From positions 1 through 60,435 of the forward strand of contig JASEER010000011.1 of the NCBI GenBank assembly GCA_030019475.1: DNA of 60,435 nt, in the 5' to 3' direction. Below, one piece after another: positions 2,627-54,954 of the stretch. This DNA comes from Thermoanaerobacterales bacterium (lineage in GTDB: Bacteria; Bacillota; Desulfotomaculia; Desulfotomaculales; JASEER01). Positions within the stretch are counted from its first letter, which is position 1, and every line of letters starts with the position of its first letter. The position numbers and the translations under genes were made by a program. Below the pieces are notes generated by a model. It was given only the letters and a program-made list of their open reading frames with translations, did no database searches and was not told the DNA's origin.

Positions 2627-3172
2627 GTGGCTGTGGATCTTACCGAGAAGCGCCTGGAAAGCTGTTATGTATACCGCGGCAAGGTCCTGAATATGCGGGT
2701 CGACACCGTCGAACTGCCCGGCGGGAGACGCGGCACGCGGGAGGTGGTGGAATACGCGGGGGCGGTGGCGGTCGTGGCTCTGGACAGAGACGGGCGGGTG
2801 CTGCTGGTACGGCAGTATCGTTACCCCGTGGGCCGAGAATTGATTGAGATCCCGGCGGGCAAGCTTGAACCGGGTGAAGATCCGGCGGCCGCGGCGCGGC
2901 GGGAACTCGCGGAGGAAACAGGATCCACCGCCGGGCGCCTGGAGAGGCTGCTGCGCTTTTTCTCGACACCGGGGTTTACTTCGGAGGAGATGCACCTTTA
3001 CCTGGCCACCGACCTTGAGCCGGGGCCGGCGGCGCCTGATGAGGATGAGTTCGTCGAGTTGGTCAGGGTGCCGCTGGATACAGCCCGGCGCATGGTGGAG
3101 CGGGGGGAGATCTGCGACGCGAAGTCCATCGTGGGTATTCTTACGGTCTGCGACCGCCTGCAAGACCGTTGA
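2627..3172 (+). CDS. NUDIX hydrolase, ADP-ribose pyrophosphatase type
   Basis: This enzyme probably hydrolyses ADP-ribose or a similar nucleoside diphosphate derivative to AMP and a sugar phosphate. The NUDIX box spans about residues 78-100, from GKLEPGE through RELAEETGS, with all consensus Gly, Glu and Arg positions present. The length (181 residues) and the IPAGKLEPGE lead-in are typical of the ADP-ribose pyrophosphatase branch. Two GTG starts are possible. The one at 2633 has a better spacing from GGGGGA than the one at 2627, which abuts it. The last codons lie inside the long hairpin at 3156-3201. Confidence 0.9.
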   Translation: MAVDLTEKRLESCYVYRGKVLNMRVDTVELPGGRRGTREVVEYAGAVAVVALDRDGRVLLVRQYRYPVGRELIEIPAGKLEPGEDPAAAARRELAEETGSTAGRLERLLRFFSTPGFTSEEMHLYLATDLEPGPAAPDEDEFVELVRVPLDTARRMVERGEICDAKSIVGILTVCDRLQDR

Positions 3173-45973: not shown

Positions 45974-46189
45974 TTGCCACCGCGCTGGATTGAAATTCTG
46001 GAACAGCACTGGGGCAAGATTTTGGGGATTTTCCTCGGTCTTGTCTTTGGTTTGATCGCCATTGTCTGGGGTTTCCTGAAGGCCCTCTTCGTGGCGATCT
46101 GTATCGCCGTGGGCTTCTACATTGGAAAGCGCATCGATGAGCGCACCGACTGGAGCCGGTTATGGGAACGGCTCTTCGGGGAAAAATAA
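45974..46189 (+). CDS. DUF2273 small membrane protein
   Basis: This 71-residue protein has two hydrophobic stretches (ILGIFLGLVFGLIAIVWGFL and LFVAICIAVGFYIGKRIDE), which is the DUF2273 pattern. It belongs to the Asp23/AmaP envelope-stress module. The TTG at 45974 follows GTGAGGTG. The exact role is unknown; it is probably a partner in the membrane complex. Confidence 0.85.
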   Translation: MPPRWIEILEQHWGKILGIFLGLVFGLIAIVWGFLKALFVAICIAVGFYIGKRIDERTDWSRLWERLFGEK

Positions 46190-46193
46190 CAAG

Positions 46194-46637
46194 ATGATGG
46201 AAATGAGCCGCCGGCGGGCGCGCGAGCTGGCCTTGCAGGTCCTTTACCAGGTCGACATCGGGCAGGCCGAGGCGGACCAGGCCCTGGCGTGCACCATTGA
46301 GATCCTCGGCCTTGAAAGTCGCGGCGACCCGGGTTTCGCGCGTGACCTGATTCTGGGCGTACGGCAGCACGGCCCGTACCTGGACGGCGTGATCGCCCGG
46401 CTGAGCAAAGACTGGCGCCTGGAGCGCATCACCTATGTCGACCGTAACATCCTGCGCTTGGGGCTGTATGAAATCCTTTTCCGGGCGGCGCAGGTCCCGC
46501 CGAACGTAGCCGTCAACGAGGCCGTTGAACTGGCGAAGAAGTACGGGACCGAAGAGTCGAGCCGGTTTGTGAACGGCATCCTGGGCCGCGTGGTGGAAAA
46601 CCCCGAGTCGTTCGCCCCGGAAAAGGGAGAAACCTAG
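46194..46637 (+). CDS. nusB: Transcription antitermination factor NusB
   Basis: NusB, with NusE/S10, binds boxA RNA for rRNA antitermination. The all-helical 147-residue protein has RRRARELALQVLYQVDI, DRNILRLGLYEILF and VNEAVELAKKYGTEESSRFV NGILG-type blocks of the family. Three clustered ATG codons (46194, 46197, 46203) are possible starts behind GGGGAAAA. It follows the envelope-stress module closely, as in other Firmicutes. Confidence 0.95.
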   Translation: MMEMSRRRARELALQVLYQVDIGQAEADQALACTIEILGLESRGDPGFARDLILGVRQHGPYLDGVIARLSKDWRLERITYVDRNILRLGLYEILFRAAQVPPNVAVNEAVELAKKYGTEESSRFVNGILGRVVENPESFAPEKGET

Positions 46638-46749
46638 AGGGATTACCGGCGGGAAGCGGCCGGTAACGGAGGCTCGTAAAAAGGCGGGGCCGCCTTGGAT
46701 GGGGCGCGGCCGGCGGGCGGCAAGCCGGAAGGGGTTTCGGCAGAGAGTT

Positions 46750-46799
46750 CCCCGGGGTCAGGGAGGCGGGAGAGGTATGCCGGCCCTCTGACCCCGGGG
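46750..46799. repeat. Strong GC-rich hairpin upstream of xseA
   Basis: CCCCGGGGTCAG and CTGACCCCGGGG form a perfect 12-bp stem with a 26-base loop in the 204-base gap between nusB and xseA. A second small inverted repeat, TTACCGGC/GCCGGTAA, lies at the gap start. There is no U-run. It may be a regulatory or repeat element. Confidence 0.5.
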
Positions 46800-46841
46800 C
46801 CTTTACGGAAAGACGCGAGTGGAGGGGAGGTCGGGCAGCGG

Positions 46842-48071
46842 GTGCGGATCGTTGGGGTCTCCGAATTGACGGCGTATCTGAAAGAGCGCCTTGAGGGGGA
46901 TCCCTTTCTGGCCAACGTCTGGGTCCGGGGAGAAGTTTGCAACTGCCATTATCATTCCTCGGGACACGTGTACTTTGCCCTCCGGGAGAAAGGAGCTTTA
47001 TTGCGGGCGGTGATGTTCCGCTCCCGGGCCGGCCGTCACAGCTTCAGGCTGCAGAACGGGCTGGCGGTGGTCGCCCGGGGGGCGATCGGCCTTTACGAGC
47101 GGGACGGTCAGTACCAGCTGTACGTGGAGGAGGTCGAGCCGGAGGGGGTCGGGGCCTATTACGCCGCTCTCGAACAACTCAAGGCGCGCCTTCAGGCCGA
47201 GGGGCTCTTTGACGAGCGGCGGAAACGCCCGCTTCCGGCACTGCCGTTAAGGATCGGGCTGGTGACCTCACCCGTAGGGGCCGCGGTACGGGATGTGATC
47301 ACTATTGCCGCCAAGCGCTGGCCTCTGGCGGAGATCGTTCTGGCACCGGTGAGCGTTCAGGGCGATTCGGCTCCTTATGAGATTGCCCGCGGCATCAGGA
47401 TGTTAAACGGTGTGGACGGCATCGACGTTATCGTCGTCGGACGGGGCGGCGGGGCGCCGGAGGAGTTGTGGGCCTTCAATACGGAGATGGTGGCCCGCGC
47501 CATCTTCCATTCCAGGGTTCCGGTGGTATCGGCTGTCGGCCACGAGAAAGACGTTACCATCGCCGACCTGGTCGCCGACCGGCGGGCGGCGACGCCGTCG
47601 GCCGCGGCGGAGCTTCTCTGTCCGGACCGGATGGATGTCGCCCGGTACCTTACGGGTCTCGCGCACCGCCTGGCCAGGGCCGTTAACGCCCGTCTGGACC
47701 GCGGACAGCACCGGCTTTCCGCCCTGCTGCGCAGCCGGGCGCTGGCCCGGCCGGTTGAAACAGTGTGCGGGCAACGACACCGGGCCGTCGACCTCCTGGC
47801 GGTTCGCCTGCGCCGCGGGGCGGAGGCTGTTATCAGCCGGCGGAGCGCGGATCTGGGCCAAGCGGCCGCGCGCCTGGATCCTTTAAGCCCCCTGGCCACC
47901 CTGGCCCGCGGCTACAGTATTTGCCGCCGTGAGGCTGACGGAGCCATCCTGAGGGATGCGGCGATGGTAGGGGTCGGGGAGAAGGTCGGTGTGCTACTGC
48001 ACTCCGGGCGTCTCCGCTGCACCGTATCGGCGGTGGAAACAGAGCAGCCGGTCCCCGGACCCGGGCTGTGA
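46842..48071 (+). CDS. xseA: Exodeoxyribonuclease VII large subunit
   Basis: This is the catalytic subunit of the single-strand-specific exonuclease VII. The 409-residue protein has an OB-fold at the front (VWVRGEVCNCHYHSSGHVYF), the nuclease domain with RIGLVTSPVGAAVRDVI, DVIVVGRGGGAPEELWAFN and VSAVGHEKDVTIADLVADRR, then a helical region. GTG 46842 matches the family start (VRIVGVSELTAYLKERLE); the frame is open further upstream through noncoding-looking Gly/Pro-rich sequence. xseB lies three genes downstream, separated by folD and fchA. Confidence 0.94.
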   Translation: MRIVGVSELTAYLKERLEGDPFLANVWVRGEVCNCHYHSSGHVYFALREKGALLRAVMFRSRAGRHSFRLQNGLAVVARGAIGLYERDGQYQLYVEEVEPEGVGAYYAALEQLKARLQAEGLFDERRKRPLPALPLRIGLVTSPVGAAVRDVITIAAKRWPLAEIVLAPVSVQGDSAPYEIARGIRMLNGVDGIDVIVVGRGGGAPEELWAFNTEMVARAIFHSRVPVVSAVGHEKDVTIADLVADRRAATPSAAAELLCPDRMDVARYLTGLAHRLARAVNARLDRGQHRLSALLRSRALARPVETVCGQRHRAVDLLAVRLRRGAEAVISRRSADLGQAAARLDPLSPLATLARGYSICRREADGAILRDAAMVGVGEKVGVLLHSGRLRCTVSAVETEQPVPGPGL

Positions 48072-49010: not shown

Positions 49011-49633
49011 GCCACTGGACATTACAGGACTTTCTCGCCCGTGCCGCGTCCCGCGAGGCCACTCCGGGAGGAGGCAGCGTGGCCGCCCTGGCGGGCGCTC
49101 TGGCAGCGGCTATGGCGGCGATGGTGGCCAACCTGACCGTGGGGCGGCCGCGGTATGCCGCGGTGGAGAGCGAGTGCCGGGAGGCGATCGCGCAAGCCGA
49201 GAACCGGCGCGCGGTCCTGCAGCGGCTGATCGATGAGGACGTGCGGGCCTTCGAGGCCCTCATGGCGGCATACCGCATGCCGCAGGACGGCCCGGAACAA
49301 CAGGTACAAAGAGGCAAGGCTATTCAAGAAGCCCTTGGCGACGCCATCAGGATCCCCCTTGAGACGGCGCGTGCCGCGCTGGATGTCCTGAGGCTGGCCC
49401 GGCGCCTGGCGGAGATCGGCAATGCCAACGCTGTAAGCGACGCCGGCGTGGCGGCCTGCCTTGCGGAAGCGGCCGTGGCGGCCGCCCTGCGGAACGTGGA
49501 CATCAACCTGCGGGGCCTGGCGGACGGTGCCCGCGCGGCGACCCTTGTTGCCGAGCGGGAGGCGCTGGCGGAAGAGGCCCGGCGCTTGGGTGAAGAAGCG
49601 GATCGTATATTGGATGCACGCCTGGACCGATGA
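48998..49633 (+). CDS. fchA: Cyclodeaminase / methenyltetrahydrofolate cyclohydrolase family protein
   Basis: This belongs to the FTCD_C family (formiminotetrahydrofolate cyclodeaminase and FchA cyclohydrolase), 211 residues. The start LQDFLARAASREATPGGGSV and the AALAGALAAAMAAMVANLT helix are diagnostic, with late VDINLRGL. It overlaps folD by 13 bases, and GTG 48998 lies after GGCGGGGAGGG. It may act with FolD on folate C1 units. Such a gene is not present between folD and xseB in Bacillus, so this is a lineage-specific insertion. Confidence 0.88.
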   Translation: MESLSHWTLQDFLARAASREATPGGGSVAALAGALAAAMAAMVANLTVGRPRYAAVESECREAIAQAENRRAVLQRLIDEDVRAFEALMAAYRMPQDGPEQQVQRGKAIQEALGDAIRIPLETARAALDVLRLARRLAEIGNANAVSDAGVAACLAEAAVAAALRNVDINLRGLADGARAATLVAEREALAEEARRLGEEADRILDARLDR

Positions 49634-49689
49634 ACGCAGTGCGTGACCGTGCATCGTGTGCATGGCGGGAGGAGGCTGGGACAAAGAAC

Positions 49690-49914
49690 ATGGCTGCGGA
49701 GGCCACTTTCGAAGAATCCCTGGGGCGTCTGGAGGAAGTTGTGCGGCAGCTGGAGGACGGTGACCTCCCCCTGGAGAAGGCATTGGATCTTTACGCCGAA
49801 GGCGTTGCCCTGGCCAGGTACTGTCACGGTTTGCTGGAACGGGCCGAGCAGCAGGTCCGGGAGCTTTCGCTCGCCGGTGATGGTGATGACCAGCAGGGCG
49901 GGAAGCCGGAATGA
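49690..49914 (+). CDS. xseB: Exodeoxyribonuclease VII small subunit
   Basis: This is a small helical subunit of exonuclease VII, about 74 residues. The block FEESLGRLEEVVRQLEDGDL and PLEKALDLYAEGVALARYC are typical. ATG 49690 lies after GGAGGAGG at a long distance; the frame is open upstream to 49630, but that sequence is not family-like. It overlaps ispA by 4 bases (ATGA). Confidence 0.92.
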   Translation: MAAEATFEESLGRLEEVVRQLEDGDLPLEKALDLYAEGVALARYCHGLLERAEQQVRELSLAGDGDDQQGGKPE

Positions 49915-50810
49915 CGGGCCGGGATTACTTGGCGGATCTGAGCGCCAGGGCACGGCTGGTCGACACCGCTTTGGACCGCTATCTTCCGCCGGAGGACGCC
50001 CCTCCGGCGGTTATCCACCGGGCGATGCGTTACAGCGTTTTCGCCGGGGGGAAGCGCCTGCGGCCCGTCCTGTGCCTGGCCGCCTGCGAGGCTTCCGGGG
50101 GAGATCCGGCGGATGCGATGCCGGCGGCGTGCGCCTTCGAGCTGATTCATACCTATTCGTTGATTCACGACGACCTGCCGGCGATGGATAATGACGACCT
50201 GCGGCGGGGACGGCCCACGAGCCACCGGGTGTTCGGCGAGGCCATCGCCATCCTGGCGGGGGACGCCCTGCTCACCCTGGGTTTCAGCCTGTTGGGGGCC
50301 TGCGTGCGGAAGGGTGCCCCGGAAAGGCCCGGGCTCCTGTCCCTGGTCGAGGAAACAGCGCAAGCCTGCGGCACGGCGGGCTTGATCGGGGGGCAGGTGG
50401 CCGACCTGCAGGCCCCGGGAAGGATGACCAGTCTGGCTGAACTGGAGGCCGTCCACCGGGCCAAGACCGGCGCTCTTTTCCGGGCCGCCGTACGGGCCGG
50501 CGCGCTGATGGCGGGGGCCGGCACGGATGTCTTGGAGACCCTTACCGCGTTTGCGGAACGTTTTGGGTTGGCCTTCCAGATCACAGACGATATCCTGGAT
50601 ATTGCCGGCGATGAGGAGAAGCTGGGCAAGCCCGTGGGCAGCGATAGGCGCAACGAGAAAGTGACCTTTGTCTCGCTCCTCGGCCTGGACGAGGCGCGGC
50701 GGCGGGCCCGGATCGCCGTGGAAACCGCCGTCAGCGCCCTGGACGGTTTCGGCCGGGAAGCCGATTTTCTGCGCCGTACGGCGCTATTCGTCCTGGCGCG
50801 TGAGTTTTAA
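49911..50810 (+). CDS. ispA: Farnesyl/geranylgeranyl diphosphate synthase
   Basis: This is a short-chain polyprenyl diphosphate synthase of 299 residues. The first aspartate-rich motif is IHDDLPAMDNDD (Asp87, 88 and 93), the second ITDDILDIAGD, and the family blocks GGKRLRPVL and GGQVADLQ are present. It condenses IPP with DMAPP/GPP in the cytosol for quinone, undecaprenyl or carotenoid precursors. The start overlaps xseB. It is separated from dxs, the first step of the same pathway, by the OLE RNA and oapA. Confidence 0.95.
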   Translation: MTGRDYLADLSARARLVDTALDRYLPPEDAPPAVIHRAMRYSVFAGGKRLRPVLCLAACEASGGDPADAMPAACAFELIHTYSLIHDDLPAMDNDDLRRGRPTSHRVFGEAIAILAGDALLTLGFSLLGACVRKGAPERPGLLSLVEETAQACGTAGLIGGQVADLQAPGRMTSLAELEAVHRAKTGALFRAAVRAGALMAGAGTDVLETLTAFAERFGLAFQITDDILDIAGDEEKLGKPVGSDRRNEKVTFVSLLGLDEARRRARIAVETAVSALDGFGREADFLRRTALFVLAREF

Positions 50811-50875: not shown

Positions 50876-50904
50876 TTGAAGGGGCGTTTGCGGTATGTTA
50901 TGAT
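50876..50904 (+). promoter_or_regulatory. Promoter of OLE RNA
   Basis: TTGAAG (50876-50881), a 17-base spacer and TATGAT (50899-50904) form a good sigma-A-like promoter. The predicted start near 50911 matches the expected 5' end of the RNA. Confidence 0.6.
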
Positions 50905-50910
50905 AGATAC

Positions 50911-51510
50911 GCAGTCTTTGAAAACTGAATATCTGGGTAAGTGACGCAGTATCCTAGTCAGGCACTCTCTTTTCGAGGGCGGGCCTAAAAATCCGCCAAG
51001 GGCACATCGATGAAGTTCCTGGTGCCGGCTTGCAACGCCCAGTTGCGGGCTGGTACTGGGAGTTAAGGTTGCGGGGCGACCCACAACGGCATGTGGGCGT
51101 TGACCCTGCTTCCGCGGAGACCCAAGTACGTGGGGAGCGGCGCGAACTATGGCTTGGGGTAGAACCTGTATGTGGTGAAAGCTGCGTGCAGCGTAGCCTG
51201 CCTTGAGTGGCGATGGTGGATACCGTTCGATGCGCCTGGGGGCGGGGGGCCCTTCGCCTCCCGGCGCGGGTCGAAACCATCACTGCAAAAGAGGCTAGGA
51301 AAGGGAGCCGCCTGTCAAGGAAAACTTCTAGGCTGTCCGCATTGCGGGGCAGGCCGGGGATTACAGTGTAGACTGAGTGGCAATCCAGTCCCGGTACCGG
51401 TAACGGTCCGGAGACGGCCTTAAAGGGAAACCGCCGGGACGGCGACGCCCGGTGACCGTCTGGGAAAGCCTACTGGACCTAAGCTACAATGTTTATCCGG
51501 TCTGTTGTCA
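50911..51510 (+). ncRNA. ole: OLE RNA (ornate large extremophilic RNA)
   Basis: About 600 bases between ispA and oapA carry no protein-like frame but abundant local pairing, such as CCCACA/TGTGGG (51080-51097) and GCTGC/GCAGC near 51180. Position and partner are diagnostic: OLE RNAs are about 600 bases, occur in anaerobic or extremophilic Firmicutes, lie in the ispA-dxs neighbourhood and are followed by the OapA gene, which is exactly the case here. OLE forms a membrane-bound ribonucleoprotein with OapA and is linked in Bacillus halodurans to cold and alcohol tolerance. Ends are approximate; no alignment could be run. Confidence 0.82.
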
Positions 51511-51547
51511 CTTACCTCCATTAACTTATATTATTTTGTCAGACGTA

Positions 51548-51569
51548 CCCCCTTCAGGGGGGAGAGGTG
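51548..51569 (+). promoter_or_regulatory. Hairpin overlapping the oapA ribosome binding site
   Basis: CCCCC and GGGGG form a stem with loop TTCA (51548-51561), followed directly by GAGAGGTG. The purine-rich Shine-Dalgarno region of oapA is partly inside the stem, so folding could lower translation. Confidence 0.5.
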
Positions 51570-51577
51570 CAGGCCTT

Positions 51578-52171
51578 TTGGCTAACGGCCGATCACGGTC
51601 TTTTCTTCGTTATGTATTACTGGTTACACTGGCTTCCTTTACAGTAACCATCCTGCTCAGCTTCTTCAGCGAATTCGCCACACGCCGTCTGGCCAGTATC
51701 GCACTTGCGATCGCGATGCTGGTGGTAATAATTGCGATCAACGTTATCGCCGACATCCTTGGCACCGCGGCAACGGCGGCGCGGGAAACACCCTTTCACG
51801 CGAAGGCGGCGAAGAAGGTCTTCGGCGCCCAGCAGGGGGTCTACCTGCTGCGCAACGCCGATAAGGTAGCGAACTTCGCCAATGACTTCATCGGTGACAT
51901 CGCGGGCACTCTTGCCGGCGCTCTTGGCATTTCACTTATGGTTCAGGTTTCCCGGGGACTTCCCGCTGCCGATGTCGTGACGCTGAATGTCCTGATTACG
52001 GCGCTGATCGCCGGCCTGACGGTCGGTGGTAAAGCTCTGGGCAAATACATTGCCGTCGGACATGCAAACGAGGTCATCTTCCTCGCGGGACGGGTCTTGG
52101 CGATCCTTCAAAGGCTTGCGTCCTGGCGGGGCGGCAACCGTAACAGCCGAAACCGAAAAGGCGGGAAGTAA
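51578..52171 (+). CDS. oapA: OLE-associated protein A
   Basis: This is the membrane partner of OLE RNA. The 197-residue protein has membrane segments around FLRYVLLVTLASFTVTILLS, LASIALAIAMLVVIIAINVI, the region of DFIGDIAGTLAGALGISLMV and VLITALIAGLTVGGKALGKY, joined by basic loops (AARETPFHAKAAKKVFGAQQ), and a basic tail (RNSRNRKGGK). The TTG at 51578 has GGGGGGAGAGGTG upstream. It resembles the DUF21/CNNM-type membrane domain. Gene position directly after the RNA supports the identification. Confidence 0.87.
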   Translation: MANGRSRSFLRYVLLVTLASFTVTILLSFFSEFATRRLASIALAIAMLVVIIAINVIADILGTAATAARETPFHAKAAKKVFGAQQGVYLLRNADKVANFANDFIGDIAGTLAGALGISLMVQVSRGLPAADVVTLNVLITALIAGLTVGGKALGKYIAVGHANEVIFLAGRVLAILQRLASWRGGNRNSRNRKGGK

Positions 52172-52228
52172 GCCCCCTTCCGCTTGCCCGCCCCCAGGAA
52201 GTTGTGTGGACCGGGGAGTGTGCATCGC

Positions 52229-54130
52229 TTGAAGTTATTAGATGGAATCGATTCCTCGCAGGACCTTCGGCCCCTTTCCTACGAACAGTTGGATCAATTA
52301 GCGGCAGAGATCCGGGAGTCGATGGTGCAGACGGTCGCCCAAACCGGCGGCCACCTGGCCCCAAACCTGGGGGTTGTCGAGTTGGCTCTCGCTATTCACC
52401 GCGTCTTTTCGGTGCCCCAGGACCGCATCATCTGGGATGTTGGCCACCAGTGTTACATCCATAAACTTCTGACCGGGCGCCGCGAGCGTTTTTCCACCTT
52501 GCGGCAGTTCGGGGGCCTTAGCGGCTTCCCGTCCCGGGCGGAGAGCGAATGTGACGCCTTCGGCACCGGGCACAGCAGTACGTCCATTTCGGCCGCCCTG
52601 GGGATGGCCCTGGCCCGTGATTACGGCGGGGACGACCATGCCGTGGTCGCCGTTATCGGCGATGGAGCATTGACTGCCGGCATGGCTTTCGAGGCCTTGA
52701 ACCATGCCGGCCATCTGCAACGGCGCCTGATCGTTATTCTCAACGACAACGAAATGTCCATCTCCCATAACGTCGGCGCCCTTTCAGGGTACCTTTCCCG
52801 CCTGCGCACCGATCCCATGTATACCCGCGGGCGGGCGGAGTTCGAGGAACTCCTGCGCCGCATTCCGGCCATCGGCCCCCGTGTGCTGAAGTGGGCGCTG
52901 CGTGTTAAGGACAGCCTCAAGTACCTCATCGTGCCGGGAATGATCTTTGAGGAGCTTGGTTTCACCTATCTCGGCCCGGTGGACGGTCACAACATCCGCA
53001 CCCTGACGGAGGTCTTGCGGCAGGCCCGGGCCGCCGGGGGCCCGGTGCTCGTACACGTCCTGACGAAGAAGGGTAAAGGCTACCGGCCGGCGGAGGTCAA
53101 CCCTGACAAATTCCACGGTATCGGGCCTTTCGATCCGGCGACGGGGAGGACGAAGCCGGCGCAGCGCGTCACTTATACGGAGGTTTTCGGGCGCACCCTG
53201 GTCAACCTGGCACAGGAAAACGATCGTATCGTCGCCATTACGGCGGCCATGACAAGCGGGACCGGCCTGAGGGAATTTGCCAGACTCTTCCCCGACCGGT
53301 TTTTTGACGTCGGCATCGCCGAGCAGCATGCCGTGACCCTGGCGGCCGGAATGGCTGCGGAAGGCTACCGCCCCGTTGTGGCCGTATATTCGACCTTTTT
53401 GCAACGGGCCTTCGACCAGGTGATTCACGATGTTTGCCTGCAGAACCTGCCGGTCGTCCTGGCTCTGGACCGCGGCGGTATTGTCGGCGACGACGGCGCC
53501 ACGCACCAGGGAATCTTCGACCTCTCCTATCTGCGCATGATCCCAAATCTGGTGGTAATGGCGCCGAAGGACGAAAACGAACTGCAACACATGCTCCGGA
53601 CCGCGATGACCCACCCTGGTCCCATCGCCGTGCGTTACCCGCGCGGCACCGGCACCGGCTGCGCGCTGGACCAGGAAACCCATGAACTGCAGGTGGGGCG
53701 GGCGGAGGTGCTTCGCCAGGGGAACGACACGACCCTGCTGGCGATAGGGAACATGGTCCCCGTCGCCCGGGAAGCGGCGGAACTCCTTGCCGCGAGGGAC
53801 TACGACGTTACGGTCATCAACGCCCGGTTTGCAAAGCCGCTGGATGAGGAGTGTATCATCCGCTTTGCCCGCCGTACGCGTCGCCTGTTTACGCTGGAAG
53901 AGAACGTTCTGGCGGGAGGTTTCGGGGCCGGGGTTCTGGAGATGCTTTCGGGGCGCGGTGTAGCCGACGTCCGGACGACGCTTCTGGGCTTGCCGGATTC
54001 GTTCATAGAACATGGCGCCCCGGCCGTCCTGCGCGAAAAGTATGGTTTGACCGCCCGCGCCGTGGCCGAAAAAGTGGAACGCGAGCTGCAAAAGGTGGGC
54101 CGGTTACGCCTCGCCGGCAAGCAACGTTAA
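52229..54130 (+). CDS. dxs: 1-deoxy-D-xylulose-5-phosphate synthase
   Basis: This thiamine diphosphate enzyme condenses pyruvate and glyceraldehyde-3-phosphate, the entry step of the MEP isoprenoid pathway. The 633-residue length is normal. Seen are [16 protein letters not shown], the ThDP-binding [18 protein letters not shown] followed by ILNDNEMS, the transketolase pyrimidine-domain blocks [17 protein letters not shown] and YPRGTG, and the carboxy-terminal domain. TTG 52229 is best spaced from GGGGAG; a GTG at 52220 directly abuts it. It follows oapA and precedes tlyA, the Bacillus order. Confidence 0.96.
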
Positions 54131-54141
54131 GGGTTTCAGCG

Positions 54142-54954
54142 ATGGAACGGCGGCGCCTTGACGTGTATCTGGTGCAGAAAGGCTTTTTCCCGTCCCGTGA
54201 ACGGGCCCGGTCGGCGGTCATGGCCGGGCATGTTTATGTGTCCGGGCGGTGCGTGGATAAGCCCGGTACCCCTGTCCCGCCGGACGCGGTTGTGGAGGTA
54301 CGGGGCACCGACCGTCCTTACGTCAGCCGCGGCGGGCTTAAGCTGGAAGGCGCCATCACCGCCTTCGGTATCGACCTCCGGGGAAAGGTCGTCCTCGATG
54401 CCGGAGCATCGACCGGCGGGTTCACCGACTGCGCCCTGCAACACGGGGCACGGCGTGTTTACGCCGTGGATGTCGGCTATGGCCAGCTGGACTGGTCCCT
54501 GCGTACCGACCCGCGGGTCACCGTTCTGGAGCGCGCCAACATCCGCTACCTGGACTCCGAGGCGTTGGATGAAAGTCCGGACTTCGTTACCGTTGACCTT
54601 TCGTTTATCTCGCTGGGCAAGGTTCTCCCGAATATCGACCGCCTGGTGGCGGCTGATGCCGAGGCTATGCTGCTGGTGAAGCCCCAGTTCGAGGCCGGGC
54701 CGGAGAAGGTGGGGAAAAAGGGCGTCGTACGCGATCCCGCCGTGCACGCCGAGGTCCTCGGCCGGGTGCTGGATACCGTCCGGGGTCTCGGGTGGCAGGT
54801 CCGGGGAGTCGCCTTTTCGCCCATCCGCGGGCCGGAGGGGAACATCGAATACCTGGTCTACGCCACGAAGCGGCACGATCCGGAGCGGGAATGGCGGGGC
54901 ACGGTGGGCGCCGTGGTAGAGAAGGCCCATGCCGCCCTGGGAAGCGGGAAGTGA
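54142..54954 (+). CDS. tlyA: TlyA family rRNA methyltransferase / hemolysin-like protein
   Basis: This is a 270-residue protein with an amino-terminal S4 RNA-binding domain (about 4-64; RLDVYLVQKGFFPSRERARS) and a FtsJ/RrmJ-type SAM-dependent methyltransferase domain (VLDAGASTGGFTDCALQ, VYAVDVGYGQLDW, VKPQFEAG). Homologues methylate ribose in 16S and 23S rRNA; in Bacillus it is yqxC, at the same place between dxs and argR. The ATG at 54142 follows AAGGG at modest spacing. Confidence 0.94.
   Translation: MERRRLDVYLVQKGFFPSRERARSAVMAGHVYVSGRCVDKPGTPVPPDAVVEVRGTDRPYVSRGGLKLEGAITAFGIDLRGKVVLDAGASTGGFTDCALQHGARRVYAVDVGYGQLDWSLRTDPRVTVLERANIRYLDSEALDESPDFVTVDLSFISLGKVLPNIDRLVAADAEAMLLVKPQFEAGPEKVGKKGVVRDPAVHAEVLGRVLDTVRGLGWQVRGVAFSPIRGPEGNIEYLVYATKRHDPEREWRGTVGAVVEKAHAALGSGK

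Follow-up and report, generated by a model that had tools for sequence, protein, structure and literature searches.

By examining a 60,435-nucleotide stretch of a Thermoanaerobacterales genome (the window), we found that the leader of its OLE RNA gene carries a 15-mer boxA (TCTTTGAAAACTGAA, 50915–50929, forward strand) that matches, base for base, the boxA in front of both 16S rRNA genes of the same genome. The site lies between an extended –10 promoter and the helix that joins the 5′ and 3′ ends of OLE, and begins 10 nt past the –10 hexamer of the predicted promoter. OLE, which is bound to the membrane, is one of the largest bacterial RNAs whose function is not known, and its making and folding in cells have been little studied. 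In other bacteria the rRNA boxA is an antitermination site that binds NusB-S10, and the likeliest reading of the arrangement, judged from sequence, is that an rRNA-type Nus complex transcribes the OLE RNA here and helps to close it. No mention of OLE RNA and boxA together was found in the literature searched, which took in few subscription papers, and we regard the boxA leader on OLE as a new detail, drawn from one exact case. The OLE/OapA locus is otherwise ordinary and conventional; its unusual feature is the rRNA boxA, which the original prediction for this region had missed.

The exact 15-mer occurs three times in the 2.28 Mb genome, a draft assembly of 87 contigs: once before OLE and once before each of two 16S rRNA genes. 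One of these 16S genes was confirmed after its boxA by an SSU model; the other has the same leader but is truncated by a contig end just where 16S begins. Allowing up to two mismatches adds one further genome site, in the 16S–23S spacer about 17 nt before the 23S rRNA, which is the second standard position of boxA. At that threshold the genome holds no non-rRNA site other than the OLE leader, and the motif is unique in the window. Since the genome matches fall only at rRNA and OLE, a reversed-pattern control gave 0 matches in the genome, and the exact 15-mer would turn up by chance in 100 positions of this composition with a probability of about 1e-8, we identify the OLE-leader 15-mer as rRNA boxA.

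The RNA that follows is a full-length OLE. The original prediction had proposed a search with the Rfam OLE covariance model as its check, expecting a hit over about 50910–51510, and the search (RF01071, gathering score 50 bits) returned a match at 50925–51527 on the forward strand that covers model positions 1–616 with 521.2 bits (E 5e-150). This is the single OLE copy in the 2.28 Mb genome; it has a GC content of 60% and folds more stably than its dinucleotide shuffles (z –4.8), bearing out the structured noncoding RNA of about 600 bases that had been proposed. The promoter that had been credited to it is also present, a sigma-A-type element with TTGAAG at 50876–50881, a 17-nt spacer ending in TGT and TATGAT at 50899–50904 on the forward strand, the TG making an extended –10. 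Such an extended –10 stands upstream of 82 of the 117 OLE loci examined, mostly 18–50 nt before the start of the OLE model, so a promoter of its own is a widely conserved property of OLE. The locus had been placed at 50876–52171, of which the end at 52171 stands and the RNA start does not, the predicted 5′ end lying near 50911–50925 instead. Two other descriptions were not upheld: OLE is not rare, since of 299 genomes sampled across the phylum 217 carry it, as do 101 of 113 in the order, and the RNA itself is an ordinary full-length OLE, not a variant. One could still regard the region as nothing more than a long 5′ untranslated region of oapA with no independent OLE RNA, given that oapA follows OLE on the same strand after about 50 nt and that the two may share a transcript, but the full-length 521-bit match, the conserved promoter and a conserved closing helix make this very improbable.

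Directly downstream lies oapA (51578–52171, forward strand; 197 aa), which starts at TTG and has GGGGGGAGAGG upstream as its ribosome-binding site. A longer ORF beginning with GTG at 51452 starts inside OLE; the aligned N-termini (LGNNKSTVS...RY) place the oapA start at TTG 51578 and its coding region at 51578–52171. The protein aligns end to end with genes 3′ of OLE in 31 other genomes, and its invariant residues include D73, G76, N107, N116, D117 and D121 (numbering of the 31-genome alignment). Because no Pfam or NCBIfam model matches OapA, homology rests on this OLE-adjacent alignment and on the fold; no sequence relative was found in the PDB either. An AlphaFold model built from 19 sequences (pLDDT 78) is all helical, and in structural comparison CNNM/CorC magnesium transporters take the first four places (Z 12.1–13.2, the next family reaching 7.9); Foldseek gives an E value of only 0.2, and we therefore treat the OapA-CNNM relation as a fold-level match. 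By position, family alignment and CNNM-like predicted fold, the downstream gene is OapA, as originally proposed, and the model predicts a multi-pass membrane protein. The CNNM-like fold agrees with the published relation of OapA to MpfA (PMC11332333). The nearest named relatives are from UBA3572 and a Desulforudis MAG (53–54%), followed by Sporotomaculum and Desulfoscipio among others, which points to a host family among Desulfotomaculum-like bacteria. Between OLE and oapA, a hairpin at 51548–51564 (CCCCC-TTCA-GGGGG) overlaps the ribosome-binding site of oapA and could hide it.

The other particle proteins are encoded elsewhere in the genome. The OapB gene lies between map and infA (G000:C15:6566-6850, equal to L171 6566-6850) and matches PDB 7k9b, 'OLE-associated protein B', with E 6.2e-13; a KOW search of the same genome did not list it among its matches, and it was recognised from the map-infA interval. 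OapC/YbxF, an L7Ae-type k-turn protein, is encoded between rpoC and rpsL (C44:10905-11153; E about 2e-15 against 3v7e and 4lck). The genome also encodes bS21, and no CNNM/MpfA family protein was found in it, an absence that fits the reported anticorrelation of OLE and CNNM/MpfA across genomes (PMC11332333). With the RNA, OapA, OapB, OapC and bS21 encoded and a CNNM-family protein absent, this is a complete, conventional OLE system.

The boxA stands immediately before a helix that closes the RNA. Its 5′ strand, GGTAAGTGAC (50936–50945, forward strand), pairs with GTCACTTACC (51507–51516, same strand), and the pairing covaries in relatives: 9 or 10 of the 10 positions are paired in 78 of 84 loci and all ten in 67 of 84, with many compensatory versions, whereas swapping OLE ends between loci leaves all ten pairs in only 27%. 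The structure line of the Rfam model shows these positions as unpaired; since the published OLE model numbers its stems from P1, we do not claim the helix as new. The rRNA leader of this genome is built in the same order, with CAGTGGCGTTT, which pairs with the 16S trailer, directly after boxA, as GGTAAGTGAC comes after boxA at OLE. In both leaders, then, the same 15-nt boxA directly precedes the helix that closes a long noncoding RNA. They differ in that the rRNA boxA itself pairs into the leader-trailer helix, whereas the OLE boxA lies outside the helix. We rejected an rRNA-like pairing of the OLE boxA with the OLE 3′ flank, 47% of shuffles being as good. Antitermination of CRISPR arrays is reportedly boxA-dependent as well (Stringer et al. 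2020, as cited in PMC12691694). There, too, boxA stands ahead of a long non-rRNA noncoding RNA, but OLE differs in being one structured RNA, followed by the gene of its partner, and in belonging to Bacillota.

A model that joins these features, and that we consider fairly probable, is an OLE RNP locus with its own sigma-A promoter in which a boxA-bound, rRNA-type Nus complex antiterminates transcription and aids the closing helix. From the identity of the motif and its placement we infer Nus binding, antitermination and a role in folding. The transcript would start with the rRNA-type boxA, the 5′ strand of the closing helix following 6 nt later, and NusB-S10 would bind boxA as it emerges and turn RNA polymerase into an rRNA-type antitermination complex. 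This complex could then cross about 600 nt of untranslated structured RNA into oapA without Rho termination, and would hold the 5′ end at the polymerase for as long as it takes the 3′ strand to be transcribed and to pair in the closing helix, in the way suggested for pre-16S rRNA. Rho and NusB are encoded in the genome, and S10 was assumed to be present, being essential. In E. coli the boxA complex raises elongation processivity and keeps Rho from acting in long noncoding leaders, boxA having rescued Rho termination in one of 567 bp (PMC4807359), and the tethering of boxA has been suggested to favour pairing of the 16S leader with the trailer (PMC10250234).

The same placement could also mean that boxA is mainly a chaperone or processing signal, holding the OLE ends for the closing helix and not acting against Rho. 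The closing helix does follow directly after boxA, and maturation, not antitermination, has been argued to be the main rRNA role of the E. coli Nus complex (PMC4807359). However, the helix also forms in OLE RNAs that have no boxA, and in vitro the OLE of C. acetobutylicum needs no protein to fold or to dimerise (PMC12286853); on balance we think this explanation unlikely.

A search of 398 genomes of the phylum for boxA followed by the OLE 5′ end found no OLE case beyond this genome, and the exact boxA core precedes OLE at 0 of the non-order loci tested and at none of 36 further named loci. We therefore reject boxA as a general OLE feature, the exact motif occurring only here among the loci and genomes examined. 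In the OLE tree, the group sister to the window's OLE also has no boxA, so OLE does not in general depend on it. Degenerate copies do occur at a few other OLE loci, while most OLE genes have none. Within the order, five loci have a boxA-like site (up to three mismatches) close to the 5′ end of OLE, where 0.31 would be expected on the basis of upstream sequence; reversed and complemented motifs give 0. The best of these boxA-like sites belongs to the relative L159, which has the near copy GTTTGAAAACTGTATAT at the same place. In that relative a small UPF0150/HicB-like gene (2894–3079) is inserted between ispA and OLE, and its stop codon, the TGA in TTTGAAAACTGTATATGGGTAAGTGACGCAG, overlaps the boxA-like sequence. 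The pattern marks boxA as lineage-specific, with two candidate histories on this sequence comparison: a gain here, or a motif common to the L159 family and lost elsewhere. The Thermoanaerobacter-like OLE leaders of L011 and L012 carry TTCTGAAAACTGAATAA or TTCTGAAAACTAAATAA a few bases past the –10; these are suggestively boxA-like and possibly represent a second origin of such a leader.

The locus could, on these data, be an ordinary OLE/oapA locus whose boxA is real and has no effect on OLE, being a chance match or a relic copy of an rRNA leader. That most OLE genes manage without boxA, and that a single exact case was found, both favour such a view. It has to accommodate, however, a chance match of about 1e-8, a placement that falls precisely between –10 hexamer and closing helix, a near copy in the related L159 family and the enrichment of boxA-like sites near OLE 5′ ends in the order, and we hold it to be possible but rather doubtful.

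OLE and oapA lie between ispA (farnesyl diphosphate synthase, 49911–50810) and dxs (1-deoxy-D-xylulose-5-phosphate synthase, 52184–54130), as the original prediction stated, and all genes of this cluster whose positions we give are on the forward strand. The order is nusB (46122–46637, start codon not settled; Pfam NusB E 3.4e-37), xseA (exonuclease VII large subunit, 46695–48071), folD-like and cyclodeaminase genes, xseB (exonuclease VII small subunit, 49630–49914), ispA, OLE, oapA, dxs, an S4-FtsJ methyltransferase gene of tlyA/yqxC type (54136–54954), nadK, argR and recN, and OLE is thus linked here to ispA, dxs, xseA/B and nusB. The OLE RNA-OapA locus of Halalkalibacterium halodurans and other Bacillota has in common with this one a full-length RNA with oapA directly downstream, the neighbours xseA/xseB, ispA, dxs, nusB, tlyA, argR and recN, the encoding of OapB and OapC elsewhere and the lack of MpfA; the copy described here differs in its high GC content (60%) and in its leader with an exact rRNA boxA. 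The H. halodurans cluster is reported to be polycistronic (PMC12265935), which can be reconciled with an OLE promoter of its own.

The linkage of nusB and ole has been noted without explanation (PMC12054373), and the OLE boxA offers a possible reason for this frequent neighbourhood, turning a linkage into a testable mechanism. We see about even chances that OLE is here a client of the rRNA transcription machinery, its boxA, borrowed from the rRNA leader or common to both, recruiting NusB-S10, tying OLE output to rRNA synthesis and explaining the nusB-ole linkage. If this is true, OLE would join rRNA, phage and CRISPR arrays among the known clients of this antitermination system.

The survey of OLE genes also yielded observations on their distribution. 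Four related genomes more than 90% complete (G363-G366; family f132, genus g246) gave no OLE match, most of the order having OLE, and a clade-level loss is possible. Another genome of the same order has two full-length OLE genes (G328:C13:45699-46312 and G328:C26:6893-7488; 518 and 407 bits). Finally, six MAGs labelled Candidatus Atribacteria/Atribacterota (L088, L089, L092, L095, L098, L101) carry full-length OLE (466–491 bits), followed in each case by a gene for an OapA relative. Occurrences beyond Bacillota have been put down to transfer or assembly error (PMC11332333), but the presence of OLE in six separate assemblies suggests that the Atribacterota OLE is real.
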